A stretch of 64,000 nucleotides of DNA from Amycolatopsis nalaikhensis (GTDB lineage Bacteria; Actinomycetota; Actinomycetes; Mycobacteriales; Pseudonocardiaceae): the NCBI RefSeq assembly GCF_030264295.1, contig NZ_CP127173.1, positions 2,921,501 to 2,985,500 of the forward strand, in the 5' to 3' direction. Under the pieces are notes generated by a model that saw only the letters and a program-made list of their open reading frames with translations, did no database searches and had not been told where the DNA came from. This document shows, in pieces, positions 7,298 to 56,584 of the stretch (within the stretch, counting starts at the first letter, position 1; each line of letters begins with the position of its first letter). A program made the position numbers and the translations under genes.

Positions 7298-7298
7298 C

Positions 7299-7631
7299 AT
7301 GCACGCCGTGTCTGACGGGCCGAAACTCGAGATCCAGATGCTGCACGACCGGGTGCTCGTGCGGCTGTCCCCGGAAGAGGGCGAGCGCCGCAGCAGCGGC
7401 GGCATCGTGATCCCCGCGACGGCGCAGGTCGCGCGCAGGCTCGCCTGGGGTGATGTACTGGGCGTCGGCAACAGCGTGCGCAACGTCAAGACGGGCGACC
7501 GTGTGCTCTTCAACCCGGAGGACCAGCTCGAGGTCGAGATCCAGGGCGAGGGGCACCTGGTGATGCGCGAGCGCGACATCCACGCGGTGGCAACGGAGCG
7601 CACGGAGCACGGAACGGGGCTCTACCTGTAG
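7299..7631 (+). CDS. GroES-like co-chaperonin family protein
   Basis: A 110-residue GroES-fold protein. It shows 'QMLHDRVLVRL...GERRSSGGIVIPATAQ', then 'GDVLGVGNSVRNVKTGDRVLFNPEDQLEVEI' and 'HLVMRERDIHAV', corresponding to the start, dome and closing strands of GroES. It differs from the principal GroES in that there is no groEL beside it and the mobile loop (SSGGIVIPA) is divergent. Conserved stand-alone genes of this type occur in actinomycetes; whether they bind GroEL is not known to me. ATG 7299 is used; GTG 7308 is a close alternative. The VanW-family gene starts 21 bp downstream. Confidence 0.8.
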   Translation: MHAVSDGPKLEIQMLHDRVLVRLSPEEGERRSSGGIVIPATAQVARRLAWGDVLGVGNSVRNVKTGDRVLFNPEDQLEVEIQGEGHLVMRERDIHAVATERTEHGTGLYL

Positions 7632-30668: not shown

Positions 30669-33600
30669 GTGCCGTTGCCCGAAAGACCGCTTCGCCTGGT
30701 TCTCGTGCTGGCACTGGTCTTCCTGGCCTCGGCGCTGGTGCCGTCGGCGGGCGCGGCCGCCGCGCCGCCGTTCGCGGTCGGCTACGACGACGTCGTCTAC
30801 GGAGACTTCCTGTACGCGGGTAACGGCGTCCTGCGCTGCCCGGTCGCGGCCGACCACGCGCCGTCCGGCGGTGCGGTGGCCACGCCCGCGGCGTGCGCGA
30901 ACACCGCGGACCGCAAGGACACCCTGGCCAACGACGACTTCTTCATGCAGTGGGCCGACGTCGACGCCGACCCGGGCACGTTCGACTCGGCGAGCGCGTC
31001 GGTGACCGTTCCGCCGGGCGCGAAGATCGTCTTCGCCCGGCTGAACTGGGCGGGCAACACCGCTGCCCGGACGTGCGGCCCTCGCGAAGGCGTTCCCTCG
31101 GTTCCTCCGCCCGGCACGCCCGCCGGCCAGCACGTCCGGCTTTCGGTCGGCAGCGCGAAATCCGTCGACGTCGCGCCGACGGCGTTCGCCGAAGACGGCC
31201 CCTACTACTCGGCGCACGCGGACGTGACCAGCCAGTTCGCCGGCGCGCCGACCGGGGCGCCGCTCGAGCTGACGGTCGGGAACGTGTGGGCGCCCAAGGG
31301 TTTCGACTGCGCCGGCGGCTGGTCGATCGCGCTGGTCTACGCCTATCCGGAGCGCAACCCCGACTTCGCGCCGAACAAGCGCAAGATCGTCGTGGACGAC
31401 GGGCACGTCCGGCAGGACACCGGTGCCCCGCCGACGGAAACGACGATCGCGGGTTTCCGCGCCGCGGCGGCGGACGCGCACATCGGCGTCACCGCGTACG
31501 ACGGTGACTGGGGCGACTCCGGCGACCAGTTCCTCGTCGACGGCACCCCGGCCGCCGAGCCCGCGACCGGCGGGACGTCGAACTTCTTCGTCGCGAACGC
31601 GGACAACGCCGCGGCGCCGGGCGTGAAGAACAACTTCAGCGTGGATGCGAAGTCGTTCAACGTCGACAACGTTCCCGCGGGCGCGACGAGCGCGAAGCTC
31701 ACCTTCGTCACCAGCGGCGACGCCTTTCTCGCGCAGAACCTCACTTTCTCGGTGCCGGTGCCGGAACTCCACGTCGCGCTGCGGGCGACGCAGCCGAAGA
31801 CCCACGCCGGTGAGCCGGTCACGTTCGCCGCCGCGGTCGCCAACCCGGGCAGCGTCCCGGTGTCCGGCGTGCAGGTCACCGACGACGTCATCCCGGCGTG
31901 CGCCCGGCCGCTCGGCACGCTCGCGCCGGGCCAGACGGTGACGTTCACCTGCACCGGCCCCGCCCCGGCGGACGACTTCACGAACACCGCGAAGGCGACC
32001 GGCACGACGTCGCTCGGCGACCCGGTCGACGGCGAGGCGTCCGCCCGCGTCGACGTCCTGCACCCGGCGCTGGGCATGACGAAGTCGGCCGACCGGCCCG
32101 CCTACCGCGCCGGTGAGACCGCGACGTTCACGATCAAGGTCACGAACACCGGCGACACCGGGCTCCGCGACCTGCGGGTGACCGACCCGAAGACGCCGTC
32201 GTGCGCGCTCGCGGGAGCACTGGCCCCCGGCGAAAGCCGGACGGCGACGTGTACGGCGAAGGCGCCGATCGCCGACGGCGTCAACACCGCGAACGCCACC
32301 GCGACCGACGAGCTCGGCAAGCAGGTCACGGCCACCGCGGACGCTCCCGCGCCGACGATCGCGCCCGCCATCGAGGTCACGAAGACCGCCGAGCCGCCGG
32401 TGATCCACGCGGGCGACGCCGTCACGTGGACGGTCGCGGTGCGCAACAGCGGCGACAGCTCGCTCGCGCCGGTCAAGGTCACCGACGACACGACGACGTC
32501 ATGCTCGCGCGCGTTCGACAGCCTGGCCGCGGGCGCGACGCAGACGTACACGTGCACGGCGAACCCGTCCACGACGACGACGTCGCACGTGACAGCCACC
32601 GGCACCGACCTGGCCGGGCAGCCGGTGACGGCCACGGCGTCCGCGACCGTCACAGTGATCACCCCGGCGCTGACCTTGGCGAAGGACGCCGCACCGGGTG
32701 TCGTGCGCGCGGGCGACCCGATCACGTACACGATCACGGTCACCAACGCGGGCGACGCACCGTTGACGGAAGTCGCGGTGACCGACGACCGCACCCCGGC
32801 GTGCGCCAAGGCGATCGGCGCGCTGCCGCCGCGGGGCAGGCAGACGTACACGTGCACGGCACCGGCCCCACCGGACGACTTCACCAACACAGCGGCCGCC
32901 GAGGGCAAGGACCAGCTCGGCCGCACGGTGAAGGTGACCGACGACGCGGTGGTCGACGTGATCCACCCGGCACTGGCGATCGCGGCGCGCGCGGAACCGG
33001 CCCAGGTCCGCGAAGGCGACACGGTGACCTGGACGGTCACCGTGACCAACACGGGCGACGTGCCGCTCACAGCCGTCCAGCTCGCCGACGAGCAGGTGCC
33101 GGGATGCGCGAAGCCGCTCGGCACGCTCGAGCCGCGGGCGACGCAGACCCGGACGTGCACGACGATCGCGGGCCCGGCGGGCCTCACGAACCGGCCATCG
33201 GCGACGGGCACGGACCCGACGAACCGCCCGGTGACGGCGGCCGCGGAGGCAACGTTCGCGGTGCAGCACCCGGCGGTCGCGGTGACGGCGGAGGTCAAGG
33301 GAGGCCCGTTCCGCGAGGGCGACGCGGTGCCGGTGCGGATCACGATCCGCAACACCGGCGACGTGCCGCTGACCGGCTTGCGGGTCACGGACACGCAGTC
33401 TCCGGCCGCGCAGCCGACCGGCCGCGAACCCGCGGGCGCGCAGGGCAGCACTCCACGAGCGCGGTCCGGCCCGCAGGCGCGAGCCACCGGCTGCACCCAA
33501 ACGCTCGACGGCCCCCTCGAACCCGGCGCCACCAAAGACTTCGGCTGCACCACCACCGCGCCCGCCGACGACACCACCGTCGCCGTCAAGGTCACCGGCA

Positions 33601-35165
33601 CTCCACCCGTTGGCCCCGCCGTCTCCGGCGAAGCCACCGCGCACGTCGATGTCATCCATCCGGCCGTCGCGATCAGCCGGACCGTCGAGCCCGCCACCGT
33701 TCGCGCCGGGGACACCGTCACCTCGACGATCACCGTCACCAACACCGGCGACACCCGGCTACAGGACGCCTCCGTAGCCGATCAAGGCGCACCGGCCTGC
33801 GCCAAGTCGCTGGGCCCGCTCGAGCCGCAGGCCACGCAGACCTACCGCTGCACCCAAGTCGCCGGTGACACCGACTTCGCCGCCGTTGCCACAATCACCG
33901 CCGTTGACGCCACGAACCGTCCCGTGACCGCCAAGGCCGAAGCCCCCGTCGATGTCATCCACCCCGCGCTCACCGTCACGAACGACGCCACTCCCGCGCA
34001 GGTCCGGGCAGGCGACACCGTGACGTTCACCATCGCCGTCACCAACGCCGGTGATGTTCCGCTGACCGATGTGTCCATTGCGGACAGTCGCACTCCGGCG
34101 TGCGCTCAGACCATCGGCACCCTCCCTCCCGGCGCCCTCCAGCGCCACTCCTGCACGGTAACCGCGGGCACCGACAATTTCGCGACCTCGACCACCGCGA
34201 CCGGAACCGACCCGACAAAACGCCAGGTCAGCGCCACCGACGACGCTTCATACACCGTCCAGCACCCCGCGCTGGCGATCACCGCGTCCACCCACGGCCC
34301 CTTCCGCCAGGGCGACACCGTGCCCTTCACGATCACCGTCACCAACACCGGTGACGTCCCGCTCACTGCGATCGCCGTCACCGGCGAACCCGCCTGCGCC
34401 AAGAAGTTCGACAAGCTCGAACCCGGCGCCGCCCAGAAGTACGACTGTGCCACCACCGCCCCCGCGGACGACGTCGTCAGCACCGCGAAAGCCACCGCCA
34501 CGCCCCCGATCGGCCCGCCGGTCACCGCCGAAACCTCCGCGACGGTCGACGTCATCCACCCGGCCGTCAAGCTGACGAAGGACCCGAAACCCGCGACCGT
34601 CCGCATCGGTGACGACGTCACGTTCACCATCACCGTCACCAACACGGGTGACGTCCCGCTGACCGAACTATCCATTGTGGACGAAGACGCCTGCGCGAAG
34701 AAGTTCGGCAGCCTCGCCCCGCAGGCCACGCAGACCTACACCTGCACCCGCAAGGCCCCCGACGACGATTTCACCGACCCCGCCGACGTAACGGGAATCG
34801 ACCCGACCGGTCGCCCCGTGCAAGCGACCGGCGATGCGAAAGTCGACGTCGTCCACCCCGAAATCGCCGTGATGAAGGACGCGGCGCCGTACGAAGTCCG
34901 GCCGGGCGACACCGTCACCTTTTCCCTGCTGGTCAAGAACACCGGGGACGCTCCGCTCACCGCGGTGTCCGTCGTGGACGATCACACGCCGTCGTGCGCG
35001 CACACCGCCGCGAACCTGGCCGCGGACGCCGAAATCACCTACACCTGCACGACGGTCGCGGGCAAGGAAGGCTTCACCAGCAAGGCGACCGTCACCGCGC
35101 AGGATCCGACCGGCCGCCCCGTGACCGCGTCCGGCGAAGCCACCTTCGTCGTCCGAAGCGGCTGA
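30669..35165 (+). CDS. Giant secreted repeat protein with eleven DUF11-like domains
   Basis: A 1,498-residue exported protein. A signal peptide (about 1-33, ending GAAAAP) is followed by a unique N-terminal domain (about 36-360) and eleven Ig-like DUF11 repeats. Repeat starts fall near residues 365, 465, 565, 665, 766, 867, 997, 1098, 1199, 1297 and 1396, a near-exact 100-residue period. Each repeat has 'GD.VT.TITVTNTGDVPL' and two cysteines ('AC...YTC') likely forming a disulfide. The sixth is about 30 residues longer through a low-complexity insert. There is no LPXTG or C-terminal helix, so anchoring is unclear. GTG 30669 follows GGCGAGG; TTG 30675 is an alternative start. Confidence 0.9.
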   Translation: MPLPERPLRLVLVLALVFLASALVPSAGAAAAPPFAVGYDDVVYGDFLYAGNGVLRCPVAADHAPSGGAVATPAACANTADRKDTLANDDFFMQWADVDADPGTFDSASASVTVPPGAKIVFARLNWAGNTAARTCGPREGVPSVPPPGTPAGQHVRLSVGSAKSVDVAPTAFAEDGPYYSAHADVTSQFAGAPTGAPLELTVGNVWAPKGFDCAGGWSIALVYAYPERNPDFAPNKRKIVVDDGHVRQDTGAPPTETTIAGFRAAAADAHIGVTAYDGDWGDSGDQFLVDGTPAAEPATGGTSNFFVANADNAAAPGVKNNFSVDAKSFNVDNVPAGATSAKLTFVTSGDAFLAQNLTFSVPVPELHVALRATQPKTHAGEPVTFAAAVANPGSVPVSGVQVTDDVIPACARPLGTLAPGQTVTFTCTGPAPADDFTNTAKATGTTSLGDPVDGEASARVDVLHPALGMTKSADRPAYRAGETATFTIKVTNTGDTGLRDLRVTDPKTPSCALAGALAPGESRTATCTAKAPIADGVNTANATATDELGKQVTATADAPAPTIAPAIEVTKTAEPPVIHAGDAVTWTVAVRNSGDSSLAPVKVTDDTTTSCSRAFDSLAAGATQTYTCTANPSTTTTSHVTATGTDLAGQPVTATASATVTVITPALTLAKDAAPGVVRAGDPITYTITVTNAGDAPLTEVAVTDDRTPACAKAIGALPPRGRQTYTCTAPAPPDDFTNTAAAEGKDQLGRTVKVTDDAVVDVIHPALAIAARAEPAQVREGDTVTWTVTVTNTGDVPLTAVQLADEQVPGCAKPLGTLEPRATQTRTCTTIAGPAGLTNRPSATGTDPTNRPVTAAAEATFAVQHPAVAVTAEVKGGPFREGDAVPVRITIRNTGDVPLTGLRVTDTQSPAAQPTGREPAGAQGSTPRARSGPQARATGCTQTLDGPLEPGATKDFGCTTTAPADDTTVAVKVTGTPPVGPAVSGEATAHVDVIHPAVAISRTVEPATVRAGDTVTSTITVTNTGDTRLQDASVADQGAPACAKSLGPLEPQATQTYRCTQVAGDTDFAAVATITAVDATNRPVTAKAEAPVDVIHPALTVTNDATPAQVRAGDTVTFTIAVTNAGDVPLTDVSIADSRTPACAQTIGTLPPGALQRHSCTVTAGTDNFATSTTATGTDPTKRQVSATDDASYTVQHPALAITASTHGPFRQGDTVPFTITVTNTGDVPLTAIAVTGEPACAKKFDKLEPGAAQKYDCATTAPADDVVSTAKATATPPIGPPVTAETSATVDVIHPAVKLTKDPKPATVRIGDDVTFTITVTNTGDVPLTELSIVDEDACAKKFGSLAPQATQTYTCTRKAPDDDFTDPADVTGIDPTGRPVQATGDAKVDVVHPEIAVMKDAAPYEVRPGDTVTFSLLVKNTGDAPLTAVSVVDDHTPSCAHTAANLAADAEITYTCTTVAGKEGFTSKATVTAQDPTGRPVTASGEATFVVRSG
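31761..35130 (+). repeat. Tandem ~300-bp coding repeats (DUF11 units)
   Basis: Eleven units of about 300 bp encode the DUF11 domains of the 1,498-residue protein. Unit borders are marked by codons for 'HPA' after 'V.V.HPA'. The DNA has diverged much more than the protein pattern, so the array is old, but it could still recombine. The sixth unit is about 390 bp. Confidence 0.75.
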
Positions 35166-40705: not shown

Positions 40706-41140
40706 ATGCGGACTTTCGGTGAGTACGAGCTGGACGACGACCGGACGCGGCTGGACCTCGACGTGGTGTGGAAGTTCCTCTCCACCGAGGCCTACTGGGG
40801 CCGCTGGCGCACGCGCGAGCAGGTCGAAGCCGCGGTCGACGGCTCGTGGCGGGTCGTCGGCGCCTACCGCGGCGGCGAGCAGGTCGGCTTCGCGCGGGCC
40901 TTCTCGGACGGCGTCGGGTCCGCGTACCTGGCCGACGTCTTCGTCGTCGACTCCGCCCGCGGCACCGGCCTCGGCAAGGAGCTCGTGCGGGAGATGATCG
41001 ACAACGGGCCCGGCGCGGGCTTCCGCTGGATGCTGCACACCGCCGACGCGCACGGGCTCTACCGGCAGTTCGGCTTCGGCGAGCACACCAAGGGCCGCTA
41101 CCTCGAGCGCGAAGGCGTCAACAAGGAGTCCTTGCGCTGA
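40706..41140 (+). CDS. GNAT-family N-acetyltransferase
   Basis: A 144-residue acetyltransferase with 'AYLADVFVVDSARGTGLGKELVREMID' (acetyl-CoA loop RGTGLG) and 'HTADAHGLYRQFGFGEH'. This YhhY/aac-like short form acts on unknown acceptors. It follows the TetR gene by 21 bp, so they may be one transcript. Its last 43 bp overlap the convergent NCS1 permease gene. Confidence 0.87.
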   Translation: MRTFGEYELDDDRTRLDLDVVWKFLSTEAYWGRWRTREQVEAAVDGSWRVVGAYRGGEQVGFARAFSDGVGSAYLADVFVVDSARGTGLGKELVREMIDNGPGAGFRWMLHTADAHGLYRQFGFGEHTKGRYLEREGVNKESLR

Positions 41141-42477
41141 GTCAGCTTGTAGTAGATCGCGCCCGGCACGGCGAGGCCGATCAGCCACGAGACGTCGGCG
41201 CCGCCCAGTAGCGGCGCCATCGGGCCGACGAAGATGCCTTCGACGTTCGAAAACGGGATCTGCACGGCGATCCCGACGAAGTACGCGATGAGCGCCGGCG
41301 CGGCCCAGCGCCCGTAGCGGCCGTTCGGGTCGTACATCGCTTCGAGGTCGTAAGACTCCTTGCGCACCAGGTAGAAGTCGACGAGGTTGATCGAGCTCCA
41401 CGGCGTCAGGAAGTACAGCAGGAAGTCCAGGAACAGGATGAAGTTCCCGAGGAACTCCCCGCGCCCGAGCACCGCGATCACCCCGCCGAGCACGCCGACG
41501 ACGGCGATGTACCCGACGCGCGCGCCCTGCGAGAGCGCGGCTTTGCGGCTGAACGCGGTGAGTGCGGTCGCGACCGTCATGTAGCCGCCGTAGATGTTCA
41601 GCACGTTCACGGTGAACTTGCCGAGCGCGATGGCGAACAGCAGCGGGATGAGCAGTGCCTCGCCGCCGAGCCCGACGACGTACGCGACTTCGTGGCCCTT
41701 GAACGCCTTCCCGGCGACGGCGTACGCGAGCGCGCCGAACGACATCGCCCAGGTCGCGCCGAGGACCGTGCCGCCGTAGGTCCACCAGAACGTCGCCCGC
41801 ACCGACGTCGTCGAGGGCAGGTAGCGCGAGGTGTCGGCGACGTACGGGCCGAAGGTGAGCTGCCACGACGCCGTCAGCGAGAGGGCCAGGAGGAACTTCG
41901 GGAAGTCGAGCGACGGCGCCTGGAGCACTGCCCCGAGGTCGTGCCCGCCGACCAGGCGGACCGTCAGGTAGACGAAGACGACCACGCTGAGCGCCGACGC
42001 GATCCACCCGAACCGGTGGATCAGCCGGTAGCCGACGATGGCGATCAGCGCGGAAAGGGCGGCGTACACGCAGATCGCGGCGTCGGTCGGCAGCCCGGTG
42101 ATCTCCGCGACGGCCTGTCCGCCCAGGACGTTGCCGCTGGCGAAGTACCCGAGGTACATCACGACGACGAGGACGAGCGGCAGGATCGCGCCGTAGACGC
42201 CGAACTGCGCGCGCGACTGGATCATCTGCGGGATGCCGAGCTTCGGCCCCTGCGCGGCGTGCAGCGCCATCGGGACCCCGCCGAGGACGTTCCCGCCCAG
42301 CACCGCGACCAGCGCCCACAGCGGGTGGACGCCGACGAGCACGGTCAGCGCGCCGGTGACCGCCGACGTGATCTGCATGTTCGCCGCGAACCAGAGCGTG
42401 AAGAGGCTGCGCGGGTGGCCGTGCCGTTCGGCTTCCGGGACCGGGTCGATGGACCTGCGTTCGAGGGCTGCCGCCAC
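41098..42477 (-). CDS. NCS1-family nucleobase permease (CodB-like)
   Basis: A 459-residue, 12-helix permease for purines, pyrimidines or related compounds. Its N-terminus 'HPRSLFTLWFAANMQITSAVTGAL' and 'NVLGGVPMALHAAQGPKLGIPQMIQSRAQFGVYGAILPL' are NCS1 hallmarks, and 'FLTPWSSINLVDFYLVRK' is the late conserved block. The GTG at 42477 follows GGAGG. No nucleobase deaminase is adjacent. Confidence 0.92.
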   Translation of the reverse strand: MAAALERRSIDPVPEAERHGHPRSLFTLWFAANMQITSAVTGALTVLVGVHPLWALVAVLGGNVLGGVPMALHAAQGPKLGIPQMIQSRAQFGVYGAILPLVLVVVMYLGYFASGNVLGGQAVAEITGLPTDAAICVYAALSALIAIVGYRLIHRFGWIASALSVVVFVYLTVRLVGGHDLGAVLQAPSLDFPKFLLALSLTASWQLTFGPYVADTSRYLPSTTSVRATFWWTYGGTVLGATWAMSFGALAYAVAGKAFKGHEVAYVVGLGGEALLIPLLFAIALGKFTVNVLNIYGGYMTVATALTAFSRKAALSQGARVGYIAVVGVLGGVIAVLGRGEFLGNFILFLDFLLYFLTPWSSINLVDFYLVRKESYDLEAMYDPNGRYGRWAAPALIAYFVGIAVQIPFSNVEGIFVGPMAPLLGGADVSWLIGLAVPGAIYYKLTQRKDSLLTPSRSR

Positions 42478-42551: not shown

Positions 42552-45500
42552 TCAGTCTGGTATTCCAGACGCCAGCCGTCCCGCCGCCCGCTCGATGGCC
42601 GACTCGACCGCTCCCACCCGGTCGGCCAGCAGCCCCACGGCACCGACCGCACGGCTCATCGGGTCCTCGTCGTCCCCGCCGAGGGCCTGGGCTCGCAGGA
42701 ACGCGGCTTTCACCTCGGACCACCGCCGCGCCTGCTCCGGCGACAGCCGTCCCCGCAGCTCGGCCAGCTTCAGCAGGTTCGCTTCCGCGCCCGAGGTCAG
42801 CGTCTGCGCCTCACCGGCGTAGTGGTCGTCGACCAGGGCTTCGAGCTCCGCGTCGTTCATCGCGGGCACGATCCGCTCGGCGAGCTTGGTCATGTTCCGG
42901 TACGAACCCTGCAGCTGGAACGGCGGTTCGGTGCGGGAAGCGTCCGCCTGCGCCGCCGAAGCGATGTACGCCTGGTTGTTGGCCAGCACGATCCGCTGCA
43001 GCCGCAGGAGCTTCCGGAGCACGGACAGGACCTGCTCCAGCTCGATCGCCGAATAGGCGTGCCCCAGCTGGTCGGCGCGCACCGAACCGTCCCCGCCCGC
43101 CATCCGGACCAGCGCGTCCACATCGGACCGCTCGCGCGCGGCGAGCGGTGCCAGCACGGGGTTCGCGGTCAGCGCGTTCTCGATGTAGCTCAGTGCGAAC
43201 AGCTCTTCCTTGCCGGACAGCACGTCCCCGAGGTTCCACACGTCCGCGCGGTTGGCGAGCATGTCCGGGATGCGGAACCGCTTGCCCTGCTCGGTGTACG
43301 GGTTCCCGGCCATGCACACCGCGAACCGCTTGCCGCGCAGGTCGTAGGTCCGCGTCCGGCCCTCCCACACGCCTTCCATCCGCCGCTGCGCGTCGCACAG
43401 CGAGATGAACTTCTGCAGCAGCTCCGGCGACGTGTGCTGGATGTCGTCGAGGTACAGCAGCACGTTGTTGCCCTGCTCCAGCGCGAACGAGATCTTCTCG
43501 ACCTCCTGGCGCGCGGTCGCGTCCGGTGCGTCGGCCGGGTCCACCGACGTGACGCCGTGACCGAGCGCCGGCCCGTTGACCTTCACGAAGACCAGCCCGA
43601 GGCGGCTGGCGACGTACTCCATGAGCGTCGTCTTGCCGTAGCCCGGCGGCGAGATGAGCAGCAGCAGGCCGGACTGGTCGGTGCGCTTGGCGTCCCCGGT
43701 CGCGCCGAGCTGCTTGGCCAGGTTGTCGCCGATCAGCGGCAGGTACACCTCGTCCAGCAGGCGGTTGCGCACGAACGCGCTCATCACCTTCGGCCGGTAC
43801 TCCGCCAGCCGCAGCCGTTCACGTTCGGCGGCCACGAGCGCGTTGCGCTGCCGCTGGTAGGCGCGGAACCCCGGCACGCGGTCCCGGCGGAAGCGGTGGG
43901 TCCGGGCCAGCGTCTCGTCGAGCCGCAGCGTCAGCGCCCGGCCGGTGATCCGCGGGTGCGCGCCGAGCAGGCCGTCCACCGTGGCCACCAGCGTCGCCGA
44001 CGAGTCGTGGCGCGGGAGATCGCACAGCTCGATCGCGACGGCTTCCGGGAGGTCGTCGGCGGGCAGGCCGCTTGCCTCGGCGAACGACCGCAGCCAGGCC
44101 TCCACGAGCTGGTGGCGGTCCGCGAGGTCGTCGAGGGCACCCAGGTCCTCGGTGAAGCTGCGCCGGTCGAGCCGGAACTTGTCGAGCACGGCCCGCGCGC
44201 CGGCACTCGCGACGAAGCCGGCCGGGGCCACAGCCAGCTCTTCGACCAGGTACTCCCCGGCGAACTCGGTTTCGAGCGCCAGCCCAGCGGTGTCGAAGAA
44301 CGCCCGCATGGCGTCCGTCAGCTCACGCGCCAGCTCGGCCATCGCCGGCGGGGGACCGAACGCGTCCCGGACCCGCGCGAGCGACGCGGCCCGCGTCGTC
44401 CAGACGGCCTTCTCCCGCTCGCCGGCGCCGTAGGCCCAGAACACCTGGGCGGCCGCCCGCGCCGCGGACGGGAACCGCAGCAGCCCGGCCGCGGACCGCA
44501 GGCGCAGCAGGGCCGCCAGGATCGCGGCCGCGTCGTGGTCGTGCACGCCGCGCGCATACCCCTCGTCGTACCGGCCCGCGGCGGTCTCGCGCACGACGTC
44601 GAGCAGGTCGGCTTCGACCAGCTCCGCGGCCGGCCGTTCGGCGAGGATCGACGTCGCCAGGTACTCGGCCCGGTACACCTCCGGCGACTCCGACACGAGC
44701 AGCTGGTCCCAGTACGGCCGCGTCGCCTCGAACGCCTCGTCGCGCACCGGCGCCCGGTAGTCGGTGCCGGTGATCGCGAACTGCATCGAGCCGTCGTGCG
44801 GTACGAGCGTCAGGTCGATGTCCTGCGTGTTGACGGCGAAGGTGTGGCGGCCGAGGCGGATCGTCTCGCCGCCTTCGCCGTAGAGGTCCAGCCGGTCGCG
44901 CAGGGCCCGGCCGGCCTCCTGGCGAGCGGCCTTCACCCGGCCTTCGAGCTCTTCGGCGCGGACCTGGTCGCCCAGTTCCCGCAGCTCCTCGACGACATTG
45001 CGCAGCTTCGCGACCATCGGATCGGCCGCGAAGTAGGTGTTGATCTCGTCGACGGACGCGAGCGAGCCGACCCGGCGCGTCACGCTGCCGAGGATCCGCT
45101 CGGCCGAGCCCGCCAGCCGGTCCGCCCGGCGCGCCCGCTCGTCGAGCAACGCCTGCTTGCGGGAGGAGAAGGCCTCGTAGACGTCGGTGCGCTTCTCCCC
45201 GAGCGCGGTCAGGAAGTCGTCGAACTCCCCGAACCGCGACTCGAGGTTCTCCAGCTGCAGCAGCAGCCGGCCCAGCTGCTCGTCACAGCGCTCCGGGGTG
45301 TCCGCGACCGCGAGCCCGCCCGTCACGGCCTGGGCGAGCAGCGCGAACTCGGCGGCGAACTCGGCCCGGCCCTCGGCTTCGAGCAGCTCCCGGCGGCGCG
45401 CGTCGAGCGTGGCCCTGGCGCGGTTGACCGCGCCGGTCACCTCGCCGACGCGCTCGAGGATCTTGGTGCGCACCACGGCGTCGGCGATGTCGAGCCCGCC

Positions 45501-47426
45501 GACGACTTCGGTGAGGACCGCGAGGCCGGCGGACTGCTCGTCGAGCCGCTCGGTGACCGGCGCCGCCTCGGCGACCGTCGTGATCGCGCCCGCCGCGGTG
45601 ATCAACGCGGTCACTTCGGCGTGGTAGCCGGTGAACGCGTCCTCGCCCTGCAGGAACCGCACCGCCCGCTGGGCGGTCTCGGAGAACGTCGTGTCCAGCT
45701 CGCCGACCAGCGCGTCCACCCGGGCGGTGTCGGCGTAGCGCAGCTCGCGCACGGTCACCAGGTGCCCGCGGGCCCGGTGCAGCTCGGCGAGGCGGCGCAC
45801 CCACGCGTCCGCCGCGTTCAGCGCCTCGCCCCGCACCCGCCGCACGAGCGACGCGGTGTCGGCCGCCGCGGTGTCGACGGCTTCGGCCGCCTGCGCGGTG
45901 AGCGAGGTGACCGTCTCGAACTCGTCCAGCACCTGCTCGGCGGTCACCCGGACGTCGGTCAGCGGTCCGCGCAGGTCACCCAGCTCGGGCTCACCGAGCC
46001 AGTGGTAGTGGTCGAAGACCCGGGCACACGCGGCGATCAGCGCTTCGAACACCGCCGCCGACGGCGCCATCTCGCCGGCCATCCGGGTGATCGACAGGCA
46101 GTCGGAGATCCCGCGGACGAGGTCGGCGTTCCCGATCCGCTCCAGCGGCCCGGTGCCGGCCGGCTGGGCCGCCGCGTAGGTGTCCGACTGGAACGGCGTC
46201 CGCCACACCTGCATCGGGTGCACCCGGCTCGGTTCGCCGGACAACGCGCGGAACAGGATCATCGTGCCGTCGTCGAACAGCGAATAGCCGTGGCACGGGA
46301 TCGGGGTCGCGACCTCCTTGCGGATCACGTTGTACGGCAGCAGGAGCGTGCGTCCCTCGGCCCGCGCGTGGAAGACGTACAGCACGTCCTCGCCGTTGGG
46401 CGAGCGGATCACGCGCTCGAACTCGAGGTCGTCCACCGTCGTGTCGAACGTCTTGCCGACGCCGGTGTCGAGGTAGTAGCCGCCGGGGAAGATGATGCCG
46501 TGGTCCTCCGGCAGCCGCTGGCACGCCTGCCCGATGCCGTCGAGCCGCGCGACGTCCCGCGTGCGCGTGTTGAAGACCAGGTAGCGGTAGTCGGTCTCCT
46601 TGTACGGCAGCATGCGCAGCAGGATCAGCGGGCCGATCCGCGCGTACGAGACTTCGGCGTCCGCGAGGCTCTGCAACGGCTCGTCGACGGGCTCGGCGTA
46701 GACGCCCTCCCCGGTCTCGGTGTTGTTTTCGACCTTGATCGTCAGCGTGCCGCCGACGGTCTCGACGAACACCTCGTTCTCGATCGAGATGTGCGGGTGC
46801 CGGCCGAGGACGTGGTCCTCGCGGGTGGTCTCGACCCACTCGAAATCGTGCGAGGGTGGGAAGACGTGGTCGCGCTCGCCGCGGTTGTCCAGGTAGGACA
46901 CCGCGCCGTCGGCCGCGACGGTCCACCGCAGCACCCGGATGTCCTCGGTGCGCGGGCCGGTCTGGAACACCGCGAGCAGCTTGCCGTCCAGCCGTCGCAG
47001 CTGCAGCAGCCGGGCCTGCCGGTAGTACCGGTACAGCTCGCCGAAGTCCCGCTCGAACTGCTCGTCCCGCAGCAGCTCGGGCAGCTCGTCGGCGCTCACG
47101 TCGTCGAACCGGAACGCGTCTTCGTCGTGGCTGAAGCGCTGCAGGGAGAAGACGTCGTCGACCGCCGTCTCGGGCTTGAGCCCGATGAAGACGTTGTAGC
47201 CGAACAACATCCGCCCGCCGACCGCGACGATGTCCCGCGGCACGCAGTTGTTCGCGGTGCGGATGCGCTCGGTGCCGACCAGCGCGAGCTGCGCGCCGCC
47301 GAAGACCTCCAGCCGCCGCGCGTTCAGCTCGTCCGCGCGCTTCGCCAGCTCCGCCGCCTGCGCGGCCAGCCGGGCGCGGAGCACCTCGTAGGTGCCCGCG
47401 TCCAGCTCGGGTCCGGCCGCGGTCAC
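42552..47426 (-). CDS. Giant AAA-type ATPase ('DNA repair ATPase' family) with long coiled coils
   Basis: A 1,624-residue cytoplasmic protein. Residues 1-45 form a helix; about 46-460 are strand-rich (propeller-like, with 'TANNCVPRDIVAVGGRMLFGYNVFIG'); 470-880 are mostly coiled coil; a further mixed region leads to the ATPase core. This has Walker A SPPGYGKTT (Lys 1265), Walker B LLYLDD (Asp 1327/1328) and sensor 1 'AGNPYTEQG' (Asn 1375). The family is named 'DNA repair ATPase' in databases, but I know no proof of that role. The GTG at 47426 overlaps the flotillin TGA, so it is the last gene of an NfeD-like/flotillin operon and may act at the flotillin membrane platform. Confidence 0.85.
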   Translation of the reverse strand: MTAAGPELDAGTYEVLRARLAAQAAELAKRADELNARRLEVFGGAQLALVGTERIRTANNCVPRDIVAVGGRMLFGYNVFIGLKPETAVDDVFSLQRFSHDEDAFRFDDVSADELPELLRDEQFERDFGELYRYYRQARLLQLRRLDGKLLAVFQTGPRTEDIRVLRWTVAADGAVSYLDNRGERDHVFPPSHDFEWVETTREDHVLGRHPHISIENEVFVETVGGTLTIKVENNTETGEGVYAEPVDEPLQSLADAEVSYARIGPLILLRMLPYKETDYRYLVFNTRTRDVARLDGIGQACQRLPEDHGIIFPGGYYLDTGVGKTFDTTVDDLEFERVIRSPNGEDVLYVFHARAEGRTLLLPYNVIRKEVATPIPCHGYSLFDDGTMILFRALSGEPSRVHPMQVWRTPFQSDTYAAAQPAGTGPLERIGNADLVRGISDCLSITRMAGEMAPSAAVFEALIAACARVFDHYHWLGEPELGDLRGPLTDVRVTAEQVLDEFETVTSLTAQAAEAVDTAAADTASLVRRVRGEALNAADAWVRRLAELHRARGHLVTVRELRYADTARVDALVGELDTTFSETAQRAVRFLQGEDAFTGYHAEVTALITAAGAITTVAEAAPVTERLDEQSAGLAVLTEVVGGLDIADAVVRTKILERVGEVTGAVNRARATLDARRRELLEAEGRAEFAAEFALLAQAVTGGLAVADTPERCDEQLGRLLLQLENLESRFGEFDDFLTALGEKRTDVYEAFSSRKQALLDERARRADRLAGSAERILGSVTRRVGSLASVDEINTYFAADPMVAKLRNVVEELRELGDQVRAEELEGRVKAARQEAGRALRDRLDLYGEGGETIRLGRHTFAVNTQDIDLTLVPHDGSMQFAITGTDYRAPVRDEAFEATRPYWDQLLVSESPEVYRAEYLATSILAERPAAELVEADLLDVVRETAAGRYDEGYARGVHDHDAAAILAALLRLRSAAGLLRFPSAARAAAQVFWAYGAGEREKAVWTTRAASLARVRDAFGPPPAMAELARELTDAMRAFFDTAGLALETEFAGEYLVEELAVAPAGFVASAGARAVLDKFRLDRRSFTEDLGALDDLADRHQLVEAWLRSFAEASGLPADDLPEAVAIELCDLPRHDSSATLVATVDGLLGAHPRITGRALTLRLDETLARTHRFRRDRVPGFRAYQRQRNALVAAERERLRLAEYRPKVMSAFVRNRLLDEVYLPLIGDNLAKQLGATGDAKRTDQSGLLLLISPPGYGKTTLMEYVASRLGLVFVKVNGPALGHGVTSVDPADAPDATARQEVEKISFALEQGNNVLLYLDDIQHTSPELLQKFISLCDAQRRMEGVWEGRTRTYDLRGKRFAVCMAGNPYTEQGKRFRIPDMLANRADVWNLGDVLSGKEELFALSYIENALTANPVLAPLAARERSDVDALVRMAGGDGSVRADQLGHAYSAIELEQVLSVLRKLLRLQRIVLANNQAYIASAAQADASRTEPPFQLQGSYRNMTKLAERIVPAMNDAELEALVDDHYAGEAQTLTSGAEANLLKLAELRGRLSPEQARRWSEVKAAFLRAQALGGDDEDPMSRAVGAVGLLADRVGAVESAIERAAGRLASGIPD

Positions 47427-49432
47427 TGCTTCGCGGGCACGAGGGTGGCCACCGACGTCTCGGCGAGGCCGAGCCGCTGCGCGGTGAGCATCAGCTCACG
47501 CAGCTTGTCGCTGTCCGGGCCGCCCGTCTGCAGCTGCTGCGCCAGGAAGGCCGACAGCGTCAGGTTCTTCACGTCCTCGGTGCTGACCGCGCCGAGGATC
47601 TTGGTGAGGTCGTCGGTGAAGCTGGCCGAGCCGTCGAGGTAGGGCCGCGCGAGCGACTGGACGACGTCGGAGTGCTGCACGAAGCCGTCCACGCTCTTGC
47701 CGAGGCCGATCGAGCCGACGATCCGGTCGAAGAACGCCGTCTCCCCGCCGACGATGTCGATGTCCGCCTTCTCCAGCCCGGCACTGAGCACGACCGCCTG
47801 TGCCTCGGCGACGTCCCGCTGCACGTCGAGCGCGGCCAGCCGGATCTCCTTCTCGGCGTCCAGCCGCAGCCGGTACTCCTCGTGCTCCCGGCTCGCGTTG
47901 TCCAGCGCGGCCATCGCGGCGGCCTTCTCGGTGAGGCCCTCGGCTTCACCCTTCAGCTTGTCGCGCAGGGCATCGGCGACCACGGTCGCCTTCTCGCGCT
48001 CGACGATCGCCTCGGCGCGGCCGACCTTCTCCAGCGCGACGGCGTCGCGTTCCTTGACCTGGGCGGCGGCCAGCCCCGCGGCGGCCTCCTCGGCCTGGAT
48101 CCCCTCCGCCAGCCGGATCTTGGCCCGCGTGTCCAGCTCGGCGGCCTGCTGGCGCGCCTCGGCGAGGACCAGCTCTTCGCGGGCCTTGTGCTTGGCGGCC
48201 TGTTCCGCGGCCTCGGCGGCCTTGATGTCCTTGACCAGGTTCTCCTGCGCCTCGGCCTCGGCCCGGATGACGAGCGCCTCACGCGTGCGCTGCGCCTCTT
48301 CGAGCACGCGCAGCTTCTTGATGTTCTCCTCCTGCTCGGCCACGGTCTTCTCGACGGCGATCCGCTCGCGGACCACCTCGGCGATCGACCGCTTCTCGGC
48401 TTCGAGCTCCTTGTCCTTCGCGATCCGGGACAGCTCGGTCTCGCGCTCGCGGCCGATCACCTCGAGCAGGCGGTCCTTCTCGATCCGCTCGGACTCGATG
48501 GCGATGACGCGCTCGCGGTTCTTGCCCGCGACCTCGATCTCGCGCTGCTGGTTCTGCTGCTGGATGCCGAGCTGCTCGTCCGTGCGCAACTGCGCGGCCT
48601 GCGCCTTGAGCCGCTCTTCGGCCTGCACCTTGGCGATCTCGGCCTCTTCGCGCGCCCGCATGGTCTCGACCTCGCGGCGCTGCTTGATCTCCGCGTCGGT
48701 CTGCCGCCGCTCCAGTTCGAGGATCGCCTCGCGGGCGTCGACGTCCTGGCGGGTGATCTCCTTCTCCTCGTTGCGGCGGAACTCGTTGGTGCGCACGTGC
48801 TCGATCGCCGTCAGCTCGGTGATCTTGCGGATGCCCTGCGCGTCCAGGATGTTCGCCGCGTCGAGCGACGCCATCGGGGTCTGCTCGAGGTAGTCGATCG
48901 CGGCGTCTTCGAGGCTGTAGCCGTTCAGGTCGGTGCCGATGACGCGGATGATCTGGTCGCGGAACTCGTTGCGCTGGGTGTAGAGGTCGACGAAGTCGAG
49001 CTGCTTGCCCACGGTCTTCAGCGCCTCGGAGAACTTGGCGTTGAACAGCTCCTGCAGGGTTCCCTGGTCGCTCGCGCGTTCGGTGCCGATCGCCTGCGCG
49101 ACCTTCACGACGTCCTCGGCGGTCTTGTTGACGCGCACGAAGAACGAGATCCGGATGTCGGCGCGGATGTTGTCGCGGCAGATCAGGCCTTCCTGACCGG
49201 TGCGGGCGATGTCGATCGTCTTCACCGAGATGTCCATGACCTCGGCCTTGTGCAGCACGGGCAGCACGATGGCACCGGTGAAGGTGACGTCGACCCGGCG
49301 CACCTTGGAGATGATCAGAGCCTTGCCCTGCGGCACCTTGCGGAACAGCCGGCTCACGACGAACAGCAGCACGAGAACGATCAGGACGACGACGGCGATC
49401 ACGACGCCGGCCCCCACGCCGATGGCATCCAT
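47423..49432 (-). CDS. Flotillin-family (YqiK-like) SPFH protein
   Basis: A 669-residue membrane-anchored scaffold. An N-terminal membrane helix (about 5-27) is followed by the SPFH domain (about 35-215, with 'GKALIISKVRRVDVTFTGAIVLPVLHKAEVMDISVKTIDI'), then a very long Glu/Ala/Arg-rich coiled coil (about 215-560) and a C-terminal region that should drive oligomers. Bacterial flotillins organise membrane microdomains. It lies 6 bp past the NfeD-like gene and overlaps the ATPase start by 4 bp, which places the three proteins in one assembly (inference). Confidence 0.92.
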   Translation of the reverse strand: MDAIGVGAGVVIAVVVLIVLVLLFVVSRLFRKVPQGKALIISKVRRVDVTFTGAIVLPVLHKAEVMDISVKTIDIARTGQEGLICRDNIRADIRISFFVRVNKTAEDVVKVAQAIGTERASDQGTLQELFNAKFSEALKTVGKQLDFVDLYTQRNEFRDQIIRVIGTDLNGYSLEDAAIDYLEQTPMASLDAANILDAQGIRKITELTAIEHVRTNEFRRNEEKEITRQDVDAREAILELERRQTDAEIKQRREVETMRAREEAEIAKVQAEERLKAQAAQLRTDEQLGIQQQNQQREIEVAGKNRERVIAIESERIEKDRLLEVIGRERETELSRIAKDKELEAEKRSIAEVVRERIAVEKTVAEQEENIKKLRVLEEAQRTREALVIRAEAEAQENLVKDIKAAEAAEQAAKHKAREELVLAEARQQAAELDTRAKIRLAEGIQAEEAAAGLAAAQVKERDAVALEKVGRAEAIVEREKATVVADALRDKLKGEAEGLTEKAAAMAALDNASREHEEYRLRLDAEKEIRLAALDVQRDVAEAQAVVLSAGLEKADIDIVGGETAFFDRIVGSIGLGKSVDGFVQHSDVVQSLARPYLDGSASFTDDLTKILGAVSTEDVKNLTLSAFLAQQLQTGGPDSDKLRELMLTAQRLGLAETSVATLVPAKQ

Positions 49433-49438
49433 TCCAGC

Positions 49439-50038
49439 TCAGTCCTTTTCTGCTTCGAGTTCCAGCGGGCTGACCCAGAAGAACTCGCCCTCGGAGTCGT
49501 AGTCGTGGATGACCACGCGGCTGCCCGCGTGGAGGTTGCCTTCGCCGGCCATCCGGACTTGGACGATCGCCGACGAGCCGTCGGCGGCGGTGACCTCGGC
49601 CTGGCCGAAGTCGTGCGTCACGGTCGACGTGCGGATGACGCAGGCCCGGCCCACGAAGTCCGCCCGCGTCGGCTCGGTCACGGAGAAGAGCCGGCGCAAC
49701 GGCACCACGAGCACCCGGGTGGCGAGCGCGCCGAGGACCAGGGCGACCAGCAGGACGGCGACGCCGAGGAGCACCCGCACCGGCGTGGCCGGGTGGACGG
49801 CCTGGAGAACCACCGTTCCGGCGAGGCTGAGGAACCAGCTGAACGCGGTGAGCAGCGAGAGCGGGATGGCCAGGGGAACGCCGCCGAAGCCGGCGAACAG
49901 TCCGTCACCGAGCCCGCCGTGGTGGTCCAGGTCGACGGCGCCGAGCAGGGCCAGCAGCCAGTAGCCGATCACGACGACCAGCAGGAAGCTGAAGAGCACG
50001 GCCGGAAAACCCGTGGCCGCGGCGATGAACCCGCTCAT
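49439..50038 (-). CDS. NfeD/YqiJ-like membrane protein with OB-fold tail
   Basis: A 199-residue membrane protein with three or four hydrophobic segments (about 12-140) and a C-terminal OB-fold domain (about 145-199, 'DFVGRACVIRTSTVTHDFGQAEVTAADGSSAIVQVRM'). YqiJ/NfeD proteins accompany flotillins in many bacteria. ATG 50038 is chosen because the first membrane segment starts just after it; GGAAGG is about 12 bases upstream. It is first in the operon with the flotillin and the giant ATPase. A terminator (50146-50177) separates it from the PEBP gene upstream. Confidence 0.88.
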   Translation of the reverse strand: MSGFIAAATGFPAVLFSFLLVVVIGYWLLALLGAVDLDHHGGLGDGLFAGFGGVPLAIPLSLLTAFSWFLSLAGTVVLQAVHPATPVRVLLGVAVLLVALVLGALATRVLVVPLRRLFSVTEPTRADFVGRACVIRTSTVTHDFGQAEVTAADGSSAIVQVRMAGEGNLHAGSRVVIHDYDSEGEFFWVSPLELEAEKD

Positions 50039-50145
50039 CGACGTCGAATCCTTCCCCCAAGAGGCTTCGGCGCCGCAAGCCTCGGAGCAGGACTGTAACC
50101 CGGCTGAACAGGGCAATCGACTACGAATGGGTCACGGTGACAAAA

Positions 50146-50177
50146 GGCCCGGCACCGGTTCGCACCGGTGCCGGGCC
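50146..50177 (-). terminator. Terminator downstream of the PEBP gene
   Basis: A perfect 14-bp stem, GGCCCGGCACCGGT with its complement, and a TCGC loop. On the minus strand it is followed by TTTTG. It separates the PEBP gene from the flotillin operon. Confidence 0.85.
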
Positions 50178-50187
50178 GTTGAAGCGG

Positions 50188-50721
50188 TCAGCCCTTGTTC
50201 TCGTACACCGGTGTGATCACGGCGCGGGCCAGCGTGTGGCCGAACATGTTGAAGCCGAGGAACGCCGGGGTCGCGTCCTCGTCGACCTCGAGCTTGTCGA
50301 GGTCCAGGGCGTGCACCGCGAAGTAGTACCGGTGCGGGCCGTGCCCGGGCGGGGGCGCGGCGCCGAGGAACTGCTTGACCCCGCCGTCGCCCTTCAGCGT
50401 CACCGCGCCCTCGGGCAGGCCGGAGCCGTCGCCCGCGCCGGACGCCAGCTCCGTCACCGACGCCGGGATGTTGAACACGGCCCAGTGCCAGAACCCGCTG
50501 CCGGTCGGGGCGTCCGGGTCGTAGCAGGTGACCGCGAAGCTCTTCGTCTCCGCCGGGAAGCCCTCCCACGCGAGGTGCGGCGAACGGTCCTCGCCGCCGG
50601 CGCCGAAGATGCCGGAGAGGTGGGGCGTGGCCAGGGTTTCGCCGTCGGCGACGTCGTCGCTGCGCACGGTGAACGACGGCACGTCGGGCAGGGATTCGTA
50701 CGGGCCGGGTGCTTGCGGCAT
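50188..50721 (-). CDS. YbhB/YbcL-family (PEBP, Raf-kinase-inhibitor-like) protein
   Basis: A 177-residue phosphatidylethanolamine-binding-fold protein. The ligand-pocket motifs are '[25 protein letters not shown]' and '[18 protein letters not shown]'. No signal peptide is present, so it is cytoplasmic. AGGAGG lies right before ATG 50721. The bacterial role is not settled. A terminator follows. Confidence 0.9.
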
Positions 50722-50895: not shown

Positions 50896-51666
50896 ATGGC
50901 GCGCCCGCTTCTGGCTCTGGGTGGCATCGTCCTGATCGGCGTCGGCCTGGCGACCGCGTTCGGCTGGGGCTGGGGATCGGACTTCGAGAACACGAACACC
51001 CTTTCGGAAACCATCCGCAGCGTGAAGCTGGAGGGTGACTCGGGGTCGGTGAAGATCCGCACCGGCTCGGGGCCGTCGTCGGTGCACCAGAAGGTCGACT
51101 ACCACTGGCGCAGCAAGCCCGGTGACACCTTCTACCGCGTCGAGGGCGACCAGCTGGTGCTCGGCGACTGCGGGAACAACTGCTCGGTCGACTTCGACGT
51201 CGTCGTGCCGGCGGGGGTGCCGGTCACCGGCCAGGTCGACTCCGGCGGGCTGGACATCGCCGGCGTGGCCAGCGTGGACGTCCGCGCGGACTCCGGCCAC
51301 GCCCGCGTCGAAGACGTGCCCGGCCTGGTGAAGCTGCGGCTGGAGAGCGGCGGCATCGACCTGCGTGACGTCGGCGAGGTCCAGCTGCACGCCGACTCGG
51401 GCAGCATCAAGGGCAACGACGTCCGCGGCCCGGTCGACGTGACGTCGTCGAGCGGGAGCGTCGACTTTTCCTTGACGCAGGCGAACAACGTGAAGATCAA
51501 GGCGGACAGCGGCAGCGTCGAGGTGGCCGTGCCGGGCGGGCCGTACCGCGTGATCGGCGACAGCGACAGCGGGCACCGCGACATCGACGTCCCGACCGAC
51601 GGCTCCGCGCCGCACACGCTCGACCTCACCACCGAAAGCGGCAGCGTCACGGTCCGCGCGGCCTGA
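50896..51666 (+). CDS. DUF4097-family repeat protein, membrane-anchored
   Basis: A 256-residue protein: an N-terminal signal-anchor helix (about 4-27), then a DUF4097 adhesin-like beta-solenoid with repeated 'DSGSVKI', 'DSGGLDIAGV', 'DSGSIKGNDV', 'SSGSVDFS' strands. Two cysteines in 'GDCGNNCSVDF' may form a disulfide outside the membrane. DUF4097 proteins are often near envelope-stress regulators; none is seen here. The small gene at 51697 follows by 30 bp. Confidence 0.85.
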   Translation: MARPLLALGGIVLIGVGLATAFGWGWGSDFENTNTLSETIRSVKLEGDSGSVKIRTGSGPSSVHQKVDYHWRSKPGDTFYRVEGDQLVLGDCGNNCSVDFDVVVPAGVPVTGQVDSGGLDIAGVASVDVRADSGHARVEDVPGLVKLRLESGGIDLRDVGEVQLHADSGSIKGNDVRGPVDVTSSSGSVDFSLTQANNVKIKADSGSVEVAVPGGPYRVIGDSDSGHRDIDVPTDGSAPHTLDLTTESGSVTVRAA

Positions 51667-53875: not shown

Positions 53876-53896
53876 GTTGAGCGCAGTCGACTCAAG
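53876..53896 (+). promoter_or_regulatory. HAIR element (HspR binding site) upstream of dnaK
   Basis: GTTGAGC, 7 bases, then ACTCAAG. The HspR consensus is CTTGAGT-N7-ACTCAAG; the right arm is perfect and the left matches 5 of 7. It lies just before the -35, as expected for repression by HspR, encoded last in the same operon. Confidence 0.88.
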
Positions 53897-53902
53897 TCCG
53901 GC

Positions 53903-53933
53903 TTGACGAGGCGCGCGAAGGCCGGACTAAACT
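53903..53933 (+). promoter_or_regulatory. dnaK promoter candidate
   Basis: TTGACG (53903-53908) and TAAACT (53928-53933) with a 19-base spacer; a shifted -10 would give 17. It is followed 75 bp later by the dnaK start and overlaps the downstream side of the HAIR site. Confidence 0.55.
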
Positions 53934-54008
53934 TGCCACGGGCCCGCTCAAGGCGGGAACGAACGTGCAGGTCACGAACATAGCAGGCTTACACAGGAGG
54001 AAAGCACC

Positions 54009-55876
<1,868 letters not shown>

Positions 55877-55880
<4 letters not shown>

Positions 55881-56584
55881 CCCATAGCTACGACGCATCC
55901 GAGAACCAGGGCCGCGGCCCCGAGGAGCCGGTGGTCGTGCGGGATCGGCGGCGGGTGGACCCCCAGACCGGGCAGGTCCGCCCGCCCGGTCCGGCCCACG
56001 CCGCCCCGGAGCCCGACGAGGTGCCCGTGGAACACGCGGGCCCCTCGCTCGGCGAGTCCATTGTGGACGAGTCGGTGACCGTGGTCTCCGACGTGGAGAA
56101 GGAGCTGGCCGAGCGCACCGCCGACCTCCAGCGCCTGCAGGCGGAGTACGCCAACTACCGCAAGCGCGTCGAGCGTGACCGGGAGGCCGTCGTCCTCGGT
56201 GCGAAGGCGACGGTGGTGAACGACCTGCTGCCGCTGCTCGACGACCTCGAGCGGGCCGAGCAGCACGGTGACCTCACCGGGGCGTTCAAGGCGGTCGGTG
56301 ACAAGCTGATCAGCGGTCTCCAGCGGGCCGGCCTCGAGTCGTTCGGCGCCGAGGGCGAGCCCTTCGACCCGAGCGTGCACGAAGCCGTGCAGCACAACAC
56401 CTCGCCGGACGTGGCGGGCCCGACGGTCACCGTGGTCATGCGCCGCGGCTACCGCTTCGGGGACCGCGTACTGCGGGCGGCGCTGGTCGGCGTGACCGAC
56501 CACGAGCCCGGTGCGGCCCCGGTGGACCCGTCCGTCGGTGGCGAGCTGCCACTCGACGGCGGAGTCGATGAACAACAGCAATAA
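55877..56584 (+). CDS. grpE: Nucleotide exchange factor GrpE
   Basis: A 235-residue cochaperone that releases ADP from DnaK. The long N-terminal coiled coil ('[33 protein letters not shown]', about 74-106) is followed by '[14 protein letters not shown]' and the beta domain '[17 protein letters not shown]...[21 protein letters not shown]'. An acidic, Pro-rich leader of about 65 residues is typical of actinobacteria. GTG 55877 overlaps the dnaK stop. Confidence 0.96.

Follow-up and report, generated by a model that had tools for sequence, protein, structure and literature searches.

A flotillin-linked DUF3686 ATPase operon of Amycolatopsis nalaikhensis as a candidate membrane-anchored protein remodelling machine

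Ravi et al. (2024; PMC11237479) describe a CesT/Tir-PspA-band-7/flotillin-AAA+ ATPase-YqiJ operon together with an abbreviated form, for which they propose membrane-associated assembly roles. The locus analysed here is a three-gene operon encoding a YqiJ-like protein, an SPFH/flotillin-like protein and a large DUF3686 ATPase in Amycolatopsis nalaikhensis; it lies in a 64,000-nt stretch of NZ_CP127173.1 (genome of 10.67 Mb, single contig), referred to as the window. The operon type is already in print, and the trio shares with it a transmembrane protein with band-7 domain and coiled coil, an AAA+ ATPase with coiled coil and beta-propeller, and a YqiJ/YuaF protein. It differs from the full published operon in having no adjacent CesT/Tir or PspA gene, which corresponds to the abbreviated form. 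As far as the text of Ravi et al. presents the operon, the pairing is not quantified and relocation is not mentioned, and the term 'MoxR' is absent from the main text. We take the window trio and the published operon to be the same family, because a Hymenobacter locus that fits the published description encodes an ATPase related over its full length to that in the window. With about even confidence, we propose that the trio acts in envelope stress as a machine that is anchored at the membrane and uses ATP to remodel proteins.

Further described systems resemble parts of the trio. FloA-NfeD of Staphylococcus aureus, in which NfeD binds flotillin, holds unfolded proteins without ATP (PMC11222466); it likewise combines a flotillin and a small membrane partner in one operon, but the complex as described contains no ATPase and is ATP-independent. 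HflK/HflC-FtsH is reported as a stress-responsive SPFH-AAA+ assembly at the membrane (PMC13220708), with the difference that FtsH is a protease, whereas no protease domain was identified by Pfam in the DUF3686 ATPase. E. coli YqiJ-YqiK shares YqiJ profile homology, the SPFH partner and the gene order with the trio; in contrast, the Salmonella and E. coli plasmid loci contain no ATPase, and the E. coli-plasmid YqiK contains the Pfam Flot domain, which the window flotillin lacks. MoxR-type ATPases of the CbbQ/NorQ kind share the AAA+ core fold (Z-scores 16.5 and 15.5), whereas the window ATPase carries a long propeller/coil N-terminal part and has a flotillin as its constant gene partner. MoxR proteins usually have a VWA protein partner. 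In the paper library searched, no functional study of this family was found under DUF3686, under its label combined with flotillin or under MoxR combined with flotillin; the one paper that joins the last two concerns Mycobacterium prophages by its title. The operon and its parts are as follows.

42552-50038, minus strand: three-gene operon (open reading frames, ORFs)
49439..50038, minus strand: first gene, YqiJ-like membrane protein with C-terminal OB-fold-like part, 199 aa (ORF and YqiJ profile match)
47423..49432, minus strand: SPFH/flotillin-like protein, 669 aa (ORF and Band_7 match)
47633..47944, minus strand: C-terminal module of the flotillin, residues 497-600 (alignment and covariation)
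42552..47426, minus strand: DUF3686 ATPase, 1,624 aa, with a GTG start over the flotillin stop (PF12458, PF25472, AAA_5)
46194..47294, minus strand: ATPase residues 45-411, predicted beta-propeller (AlphaFold2 model)
44883..46148, minus strand: ATPase residues 427-848, predicted long helices/coiled coil with DUF7902 at 596-680 (model and Pfam)
43782..44876, minus strand: ATPase residues 851-1215, predicted beta and helical segment, candidate flotillin-facing part (model with mean pLDDT 89, and covariation)
43107..43781, minus strand: ATPase residues 1216-1440, predicted AAA+ core with a hairpin before the sensor-1 strand (model, structural matches and invariant motifs)

The gene coordinates, the minus strand, the 6-bp gap and the 4-bp GTGA overlap given by a first-pass annotation of this DNA were all borne out. 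To follow the linkage, 162 loci were assembled (157 distinct by ATPase sequence), consisting of 71 from two samples of 296 phylum and 249 family genomes, 80 named loci and 11 of 12 plasmid-collection records. The named loci are the best 80 of 471 and are biased to close relatives, and 13 of the 162 lie outside Actinomycetota (Myxococcota-type and other uncultured records, Deinococcus, Hymenobacter and Gammaproteobacteria). A flotillin gene is located directly upstream on the same strand in 159/162 loci (154/157 distinct) with no strand violation, and the three loci without one (L129, L187, L196) start at a contig end; the reservation that ATPase homologues might mostly occur without a flotillin neighbour was not borne out by this count. 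In the family sample, the ATPase is encoded by 63/249 genomes, A. nalaikhensis included, and a strong flotillin match occurs in the same 63; five further genomes with flotillin matches below 25 bits were left out. In the plasmid collection, records with the ATPase account for all of the top 11 flotillin matches, and the next match (31% identity) comes from a record without it; the twelfth ATPase record, from Hymenobacter, falls outside the 60 flotillin matches listed yet has a flotillin gene. The presence of ATPase and flotillin is reciprocal, with related genomes counting as non-independent observations, and adjacency together with the 63/63 co-presence agrees with the earlier view of the ATPase as a dedicated flotillin partner. 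No ATPase-flotillin or flotillin-YqiJ fusion was identified in the 162 loci. Genome G128 contains two DUF3686 paralogues, one of which (L049, 5178-10187) is split by an in-frame stop, and the flotillins of L052 and L053 are each contained in two ORFs; these split genes are pseudogenes or sequence errors.

The first gene, originally described as NfeD-like, is related to YqiJ by profile comparison (hhalign probability 97, E-value 1e-10; five versus four sequences), but it matched no Pfam family at E 0.1, with NfeD, YqiJ_N and YqiJ_OB all unmatched. A YqiJ-like protein is present in 141/162 loci (136/157 distinct), consistent with the expected pairing of NfeD/YqiJ proteins with flotillins. Ten of the 21 loci without a match retain at most 1.5 kb of sequence upstream, mostly none. 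The second gene product is SPFH/flotillin-like as proposed, with moderate support from Band_7 (45.8 bits versus a cut-off of 23.6 in the genome search; absent from the hmmscan list of the protein), but without the Pfam Flot domain (PF15975), which is absent from the window flotillin and from the three further ATPase-linked flotillins scanned and present in the one unlinked flotillin scanned (E. coli-plasmid YqiK type, E 1.3e-38). No solved structure matching the flotillin or the YqiJ-like protein by sequence was found.

The flotillins linked to the ATPase share a C-terminal module (C-module) with the consensus HEEYR ... IVGG, which reads HDKW ... FGG in Vibrio and Photobacterium. Residues H517, E518, E519, G562 and G563 are invariant in five linked flotillins, and the module was not seen in four unlinked YqiK-type ones (Rhizobium, Bosea, Salmonella and an E. 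coli plasmid) in an alignment judged by eye. These four resemble the window flotillin through the SPFH domain and the first coil, with tblastn spanning residues 27-400 at most. From these comparisons, the ATPase-linked flotillins appear to form a special subfamily with its own C-terminal module. Flotillin gene rows without the ATPase were also observed: an IncK2/Z conjugative plasmid (L217, CP088792.1) encodes a YqiJ-flotillin pair at 5279-7620 between traC-annotated and type IV pilus genes, and a Rhizobium plasmid (L214, 4097-7572) carries a PspA-OB-fold-flotillin gene row. Flotillin matches in the plasmid collection include 229 Escherichia and 26 Shigella records (a few chromosome-sized), and 261 of the 316 matching records are predicted to be conjugative.

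The ATPase matches PF12458 (DUF3686) with an E-value of 9e-226 (750 bits versus a gathering cut-off of 25), PF25472 (DUF7902) at E 6.6e-30 and AAA_5 at E 4e-6, and its closest named relative, among the best 80 of 471, is that of Amycolatopsis thailandensis (87%). AlphaFold2 single-chain models of residues 1-870 and 851-1624, calculated from 47-sequence alignments, reached a mean predicted local distance difference test (pLDDT) score of 88.0 and 89.1, respectively. In these models a helix is followed by a propeller, long helices, a small beta and helical part and the AAA+ core. The N-terminal propeller and coiled coil recognised in the first-pass annotation are thus also predicted by modelling over about 850 residues (45-411 and 427-848). 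WD40 propellers lead the structural matches of 45-411 with a modest score (best Z 9.2, root-mean-square deviation (rmsd) 6.6, 215 residues aligned). Comparison with solved structures by sequence gave matches to the AAA+ P-loop only, with the N-terminal half at chance level (best E 0.18). Within the protein, conservation is highest in the AAA+ core (mean identity 0.73 among 18 divergent relatives), compared with 0.55 for the propeller and 0.31-0.60 for the rest.

Walker A (GYGKT, K1265), Walker B (D1327/D1328) and sensor-1 N1375, already noted as intact, are invariant in alignments of 8 and 47 sequences, as is R1393. Walker B is D-D rather than D-E. On these motifs the protein qualifies as a putatively active AAA+ ATPase. 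The model contains a beta-hairpin (strands 499-504 and 507-512, model numbering) before the sensor-1 strand (518-522), a feature that is wider than MoxR. Using VIA-align, in which Z differences below 1 are ties, the AAA+ half matched CbbQ2 (Z 16.5, rmsd 3.9, 253 aligned), NorQ (15.5), dynein (14.8) and Mdn1 (14.2), while Foldseek placed RuvB first (E 2.6e-6, template modelling (TM) score by target 0.37) with NorQ and CbbQ2 close behind. The models suggest that the ATPase falls among the pre-sensor-1-hairpin AAA+ proteins and is probably nearest to MoxR, with the closest fold differing by method. RuvB, which is also a weak sequence match, is together with the Pfam/NCBI label the argument for the protein being a DNA repair ATPase. 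We regard that function as very improbable: the RuvB sequence matches are limited to the P-loop region, the constant partner is a membrane scaffold, and the paper library searched gave no paper joining the label with flotillin and none on DUF3686. The six flanking window genes scanned contain no repair family either, in keeping with the original remark that the label has no visible support.

Covariation was measured between protein regions as the residual evolutionary distances after removal of the common trend, in 93 dereplicated loci, drawn from the 140 in which each of the three proteins is nearly complete. The best partners of the C-module are ATPase residues 851-900 (partial r 0.38), 901-1060 (0.37) and 1061-1215 (0.32), while it covaries negatively with the propeller (-0.28) and the AAA+ core (-0.26). 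When the loci were halved at random 150 times, a pair joining the C-module to a part of ATPase 851-1215 ranked first among the 54 pairs on 124 occasions. In the 81 actinobacterial loci alone, C-module and 901-1060 rank first again (r 0.40), with the distal flotillin coil 341-480 and 901-1060 (0.37) and the YqiJ OB part and AAA+ core (0.34) close behind; between the ATPase's own domains the same measure reaches up to 0.50. This suggests the C-module (497-600) and ATPase 851-1215 as a candidate contact, a lead rather than proof. The earlier proposal that the ATPase docks on the flotillin coiled coil is partly retained, as the distal half of the coil (341-480) ranks second, but the C-module with ATPase 851-1215 comes first.

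The trio is furthermore a sharply bounded unit that is found at several addresses in the genus, where the ATPase is patchy (26/60 genomes; 8/296 in the phylum sample, A. nalaikhensis included). The features that delimit it in the window are listed below.

50188-50721: PEBP gene, upstream neighbour
50146..50177, minus strand: intrinsic-terminator-like hairpin, after the upstream PEBP gene
50092..50139, minus strand: conserved upstream block, kept in the window and ten other genus loci
42570..42571: junction; the relatives' trio similarity ends at 42570-42586, and similarity to the trio-free site of genome G571 resumes at 42570
41098-42477: cytosine/purine-type permease, next gene downstream

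The hairpin, expected from the first-pass annotation as an upstream terminator, was found and is read as the upstream boundary because of its position after the PEBP gene. The upstream block, which reads CACCGTGACCC...TCGTAG...CGA (50117-50139) with a -10-like TTACAGT (50092-50098), accompanies the trio both in the window and in the ten other loci. In comparisons with 11 relatives, the DNA is 84-90% similar over a stretch that opens at 50040-50061, immediately ahead of the first gene, and closes in the final codons of the ATPase gene. Among 22 genus loci, seven upstream-flank and nine downstream-flank groups were distinguished, one of the latter (L075) being discounted with only 260 bp; 13 of the 22 loci share one upstream address, and neither flank of the window recurs in any other locus. 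At the window's site, the PEBP and permease genes of G571, which lacks a DUF3686 gene, are separated by 1,175 bp holding an XRE/DUF5753-DUF397 gene pair (L219, 3517-4543), so the site is possibly an exchange site for small cargo. In G555 the two genes are about 20 bp apart, also without a DUF3686 gene. These are two of 11 other genomes with a permease of at least 83% identity; in the remaining nine the best PEBP match lies elsewhere (13.7 kb off in G572), and none has DUF3686. From the similarity boundaries and the G571 site it follows that the ATPase owes its final five residues (SGIPD) and its stop codon to DNA upstream of the permease. Both gain at the window's site and loss in the relatives are possible. 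Trio DNA is 89-90% similar where the PEBP protein is 92-96% identical and 84-85% where it is 76-77%; trio divergence therefore roughly tracks that of PEBP, and any transfer would have been mostly within the clade.

In the proposed machine, the SPFH protein and its YqiJ-like partner would form an oligomeric scaffold at the inner membrane face, which would gather damaged or misassembled membrane-associated proteins, presumably upon envelope stress. The ATPase, potentially assembled as a ring, would be held at this scaffold mainly via the flotillin C-module and its own residues 851-1215, with the beta-propeller receiving clients or adaptors, and would pull on or reshape the proteins held by the scaffold. 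This proposal is based on the flotillin adjacency in 159/162 loci, the 63/63 reciprocity, the C-module covariation, the CbbQ/NorQ-like fold, and PspA (two loci) and PLD/TelA (one locus) as neighbours among the 13 non-actinobacterial loci, as well as on the precedents of FloA-NfeD and HflK/C-FtsH as described (PMC11222466, PMC13220708). More tentatively, and with lower confidence than the machine itself, the trio might be a relocatable version thereof, in which a flotillin subfamily has a MoxR-type AAA+ ring as its permanent partner and this ring, docked via the C-module, makes an ATP-independent holdase an ATP-driven remodeller, with units of promoter and three genes exchanged between actinomycete chromosomal sites.

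Several observations weigh against the remodelling machine. Distance covariation may reflect a shared evolutionary rate, and the partial r is just 0.32-0.38. Among the 18 divergent relatives, mean identity is lower in the C-module (0.47) than in the coil (0.53) and in the SPFH domain (0.67). The AAA+ fold call comes from a single-chain model, with RuvB first by Foldseek and MoxR-type proteins first by VIA-align. The YqiJ-like partner appears to be dispensable or unrecognisably diverged in some loci, because 11 loci (L055 and ten Streptomyces) with more than 5 kb of sequence upstream of the flotillin gene show no match. PspA lies beside the trio in only 2/162 loci, and the genome's own PspA is located elsewhere, its single match at 6,357,832 being 3.4 Mb from the trio. 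Finally, deletions of SPFH genes in Pseudomonas aeruginosa, which as far as described are genes without a DUF3686 ATPase, are reported to cause no pronounced phenotype (PMC13086221).

The neighbourhoods of the trio in other genomes bear on two further explanations. On plasmid pQBR103 the trio is preceded by YjfI (DUF2170), PspA, rhomboid, DUF2491, DUF350, DUF1190 and glutathionylspermidine synthase-type genes, and on the Hymenobacter plasmid by CesT/Tir and PspA. Together with the grouping of the operon with PspA by Ravi et al. (PMC11237479), this would fit a PspA-linked membrane repair system, in which the ATPase disassembles ESCRT-III-like PspA filaments in the fashion of Vps4 with the flotillin as platform. 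We consider this unlikely given the rarity of PspA beside the trio and the MoxR-type proteins that lead the structural matches listed; Vps4 is absent among the 50 listed, which excludes nothing. A metal-oxyanion or tellurite-type stress module (Ter/Tel-like) is suggested by PLD-like and TelA genes directly downstream of the trio in Vibrio (L203), two ORFs of similar size at that place in Photobacterium (L210) and a TerD annotated near the trio in Streptomyces (L207). Such neighbours occur in few loci only and were absent among the six window neighbours scanned, and this function appears rather improbable.

A phage-defence role had been considered possible in the first-pass annotation, and an anti-phage or conflict system, whose scaffold senses infection and whose ATPase is the effector or activator, would account for the patchy distribution, the several addresses and the sharp bounds, which resemble those of defence modules. 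Defence systems often include large AAA+ proteins. PADLOC 2.0 gave 13 member-matches (mad3 5, AriA 3, mad2 2, mad8 2, PDC-S29 1) among 124 of the 204 listed neighbour genes of 18 relatives, compared with one among 40 other window proteins. We read these matches as generic, since ABC transporter, AAA and regulator families are among the Pfam families of the same neighbour set (first 25 of 122), and the neighbour genes otherwise look ordinary. For the trio itself PADLOC gave nothing that reached E 1e-3 (the lowest value was 0.0012, in the P-loop region), and neither a set of 50,697 phage records nor a pattern-limited scan of viral contigs yielded a relative. The searches thus gave no support to the earlier suggestion, and we regard defence as unlikely.

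The retrieved flanks of the 162 loci contained no match (phmmer, E 1e-10) to the window's PEBP, permease, GNAT or Toastrack gene, and those of three loci contained the alpha/beta hydrolase neighbour. A Toastrack (DUF4097) gene is located two genes upstream of the operon (50896-51666); despite the link between Toastrack and the phage-shock-protein (PSP) system in Ravi et al., it was rejected as a partner since it is not a shared neighbour. K-mer clustering of ORFs of at least 110 aa within 5 kb of 91 loci (L120-L205, L207-L211) yielded no conserved extra gene: two of three clusters were low-complexity frames, and the third comprised 20 loci, mostly upstream and on the opposite strand. A putative regulator site (GTNACC-N5-GTNRCC) occurs upstream in 10/154 loci compared with 3/3,080 control segments, but is not independent evidence because all ten loci belong to one genus with conserved promoters. 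Elsewhere, the window encodes a probably cell-surface protein of 1,498 residues with about ten DUF7507/DUF11-type repeats (30669-35165). A minus-strand ORF (53892-55898) matches PF10712 'NAD-specific glutamate dehydrogenase' (E 2.6e-146); it is antisense to a GC-favoured ORF (54009-55880) and perhaps a shadow ORF rather than a gene.

Beyond the published operon, the present analysis adds the strict and reciprocal pairing of ATPase and flotillin, a flotillin subfamily marked by its own C-module with a candidate contact, the MoxR-like reading of the AAA+ core and the bounded, relocating character within one genus. On this evidence the DUF3686 family appears to be misleadingly labelled as 'DNA repair ATPase' in public databases. 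The lack of a pronounced phenotype reported for SPFH deletions in P. aeruginosa (PMC13086221) is a caution for simple deletion tests of the proposed remodelling machine. By offering a dedicated, constantly paired ATPase, a small candidate contact surface on either side and natural presence and absence within one genus, this operon makes the role of bacterial flotillins, and whether any of them draws on ATP, directly testable.

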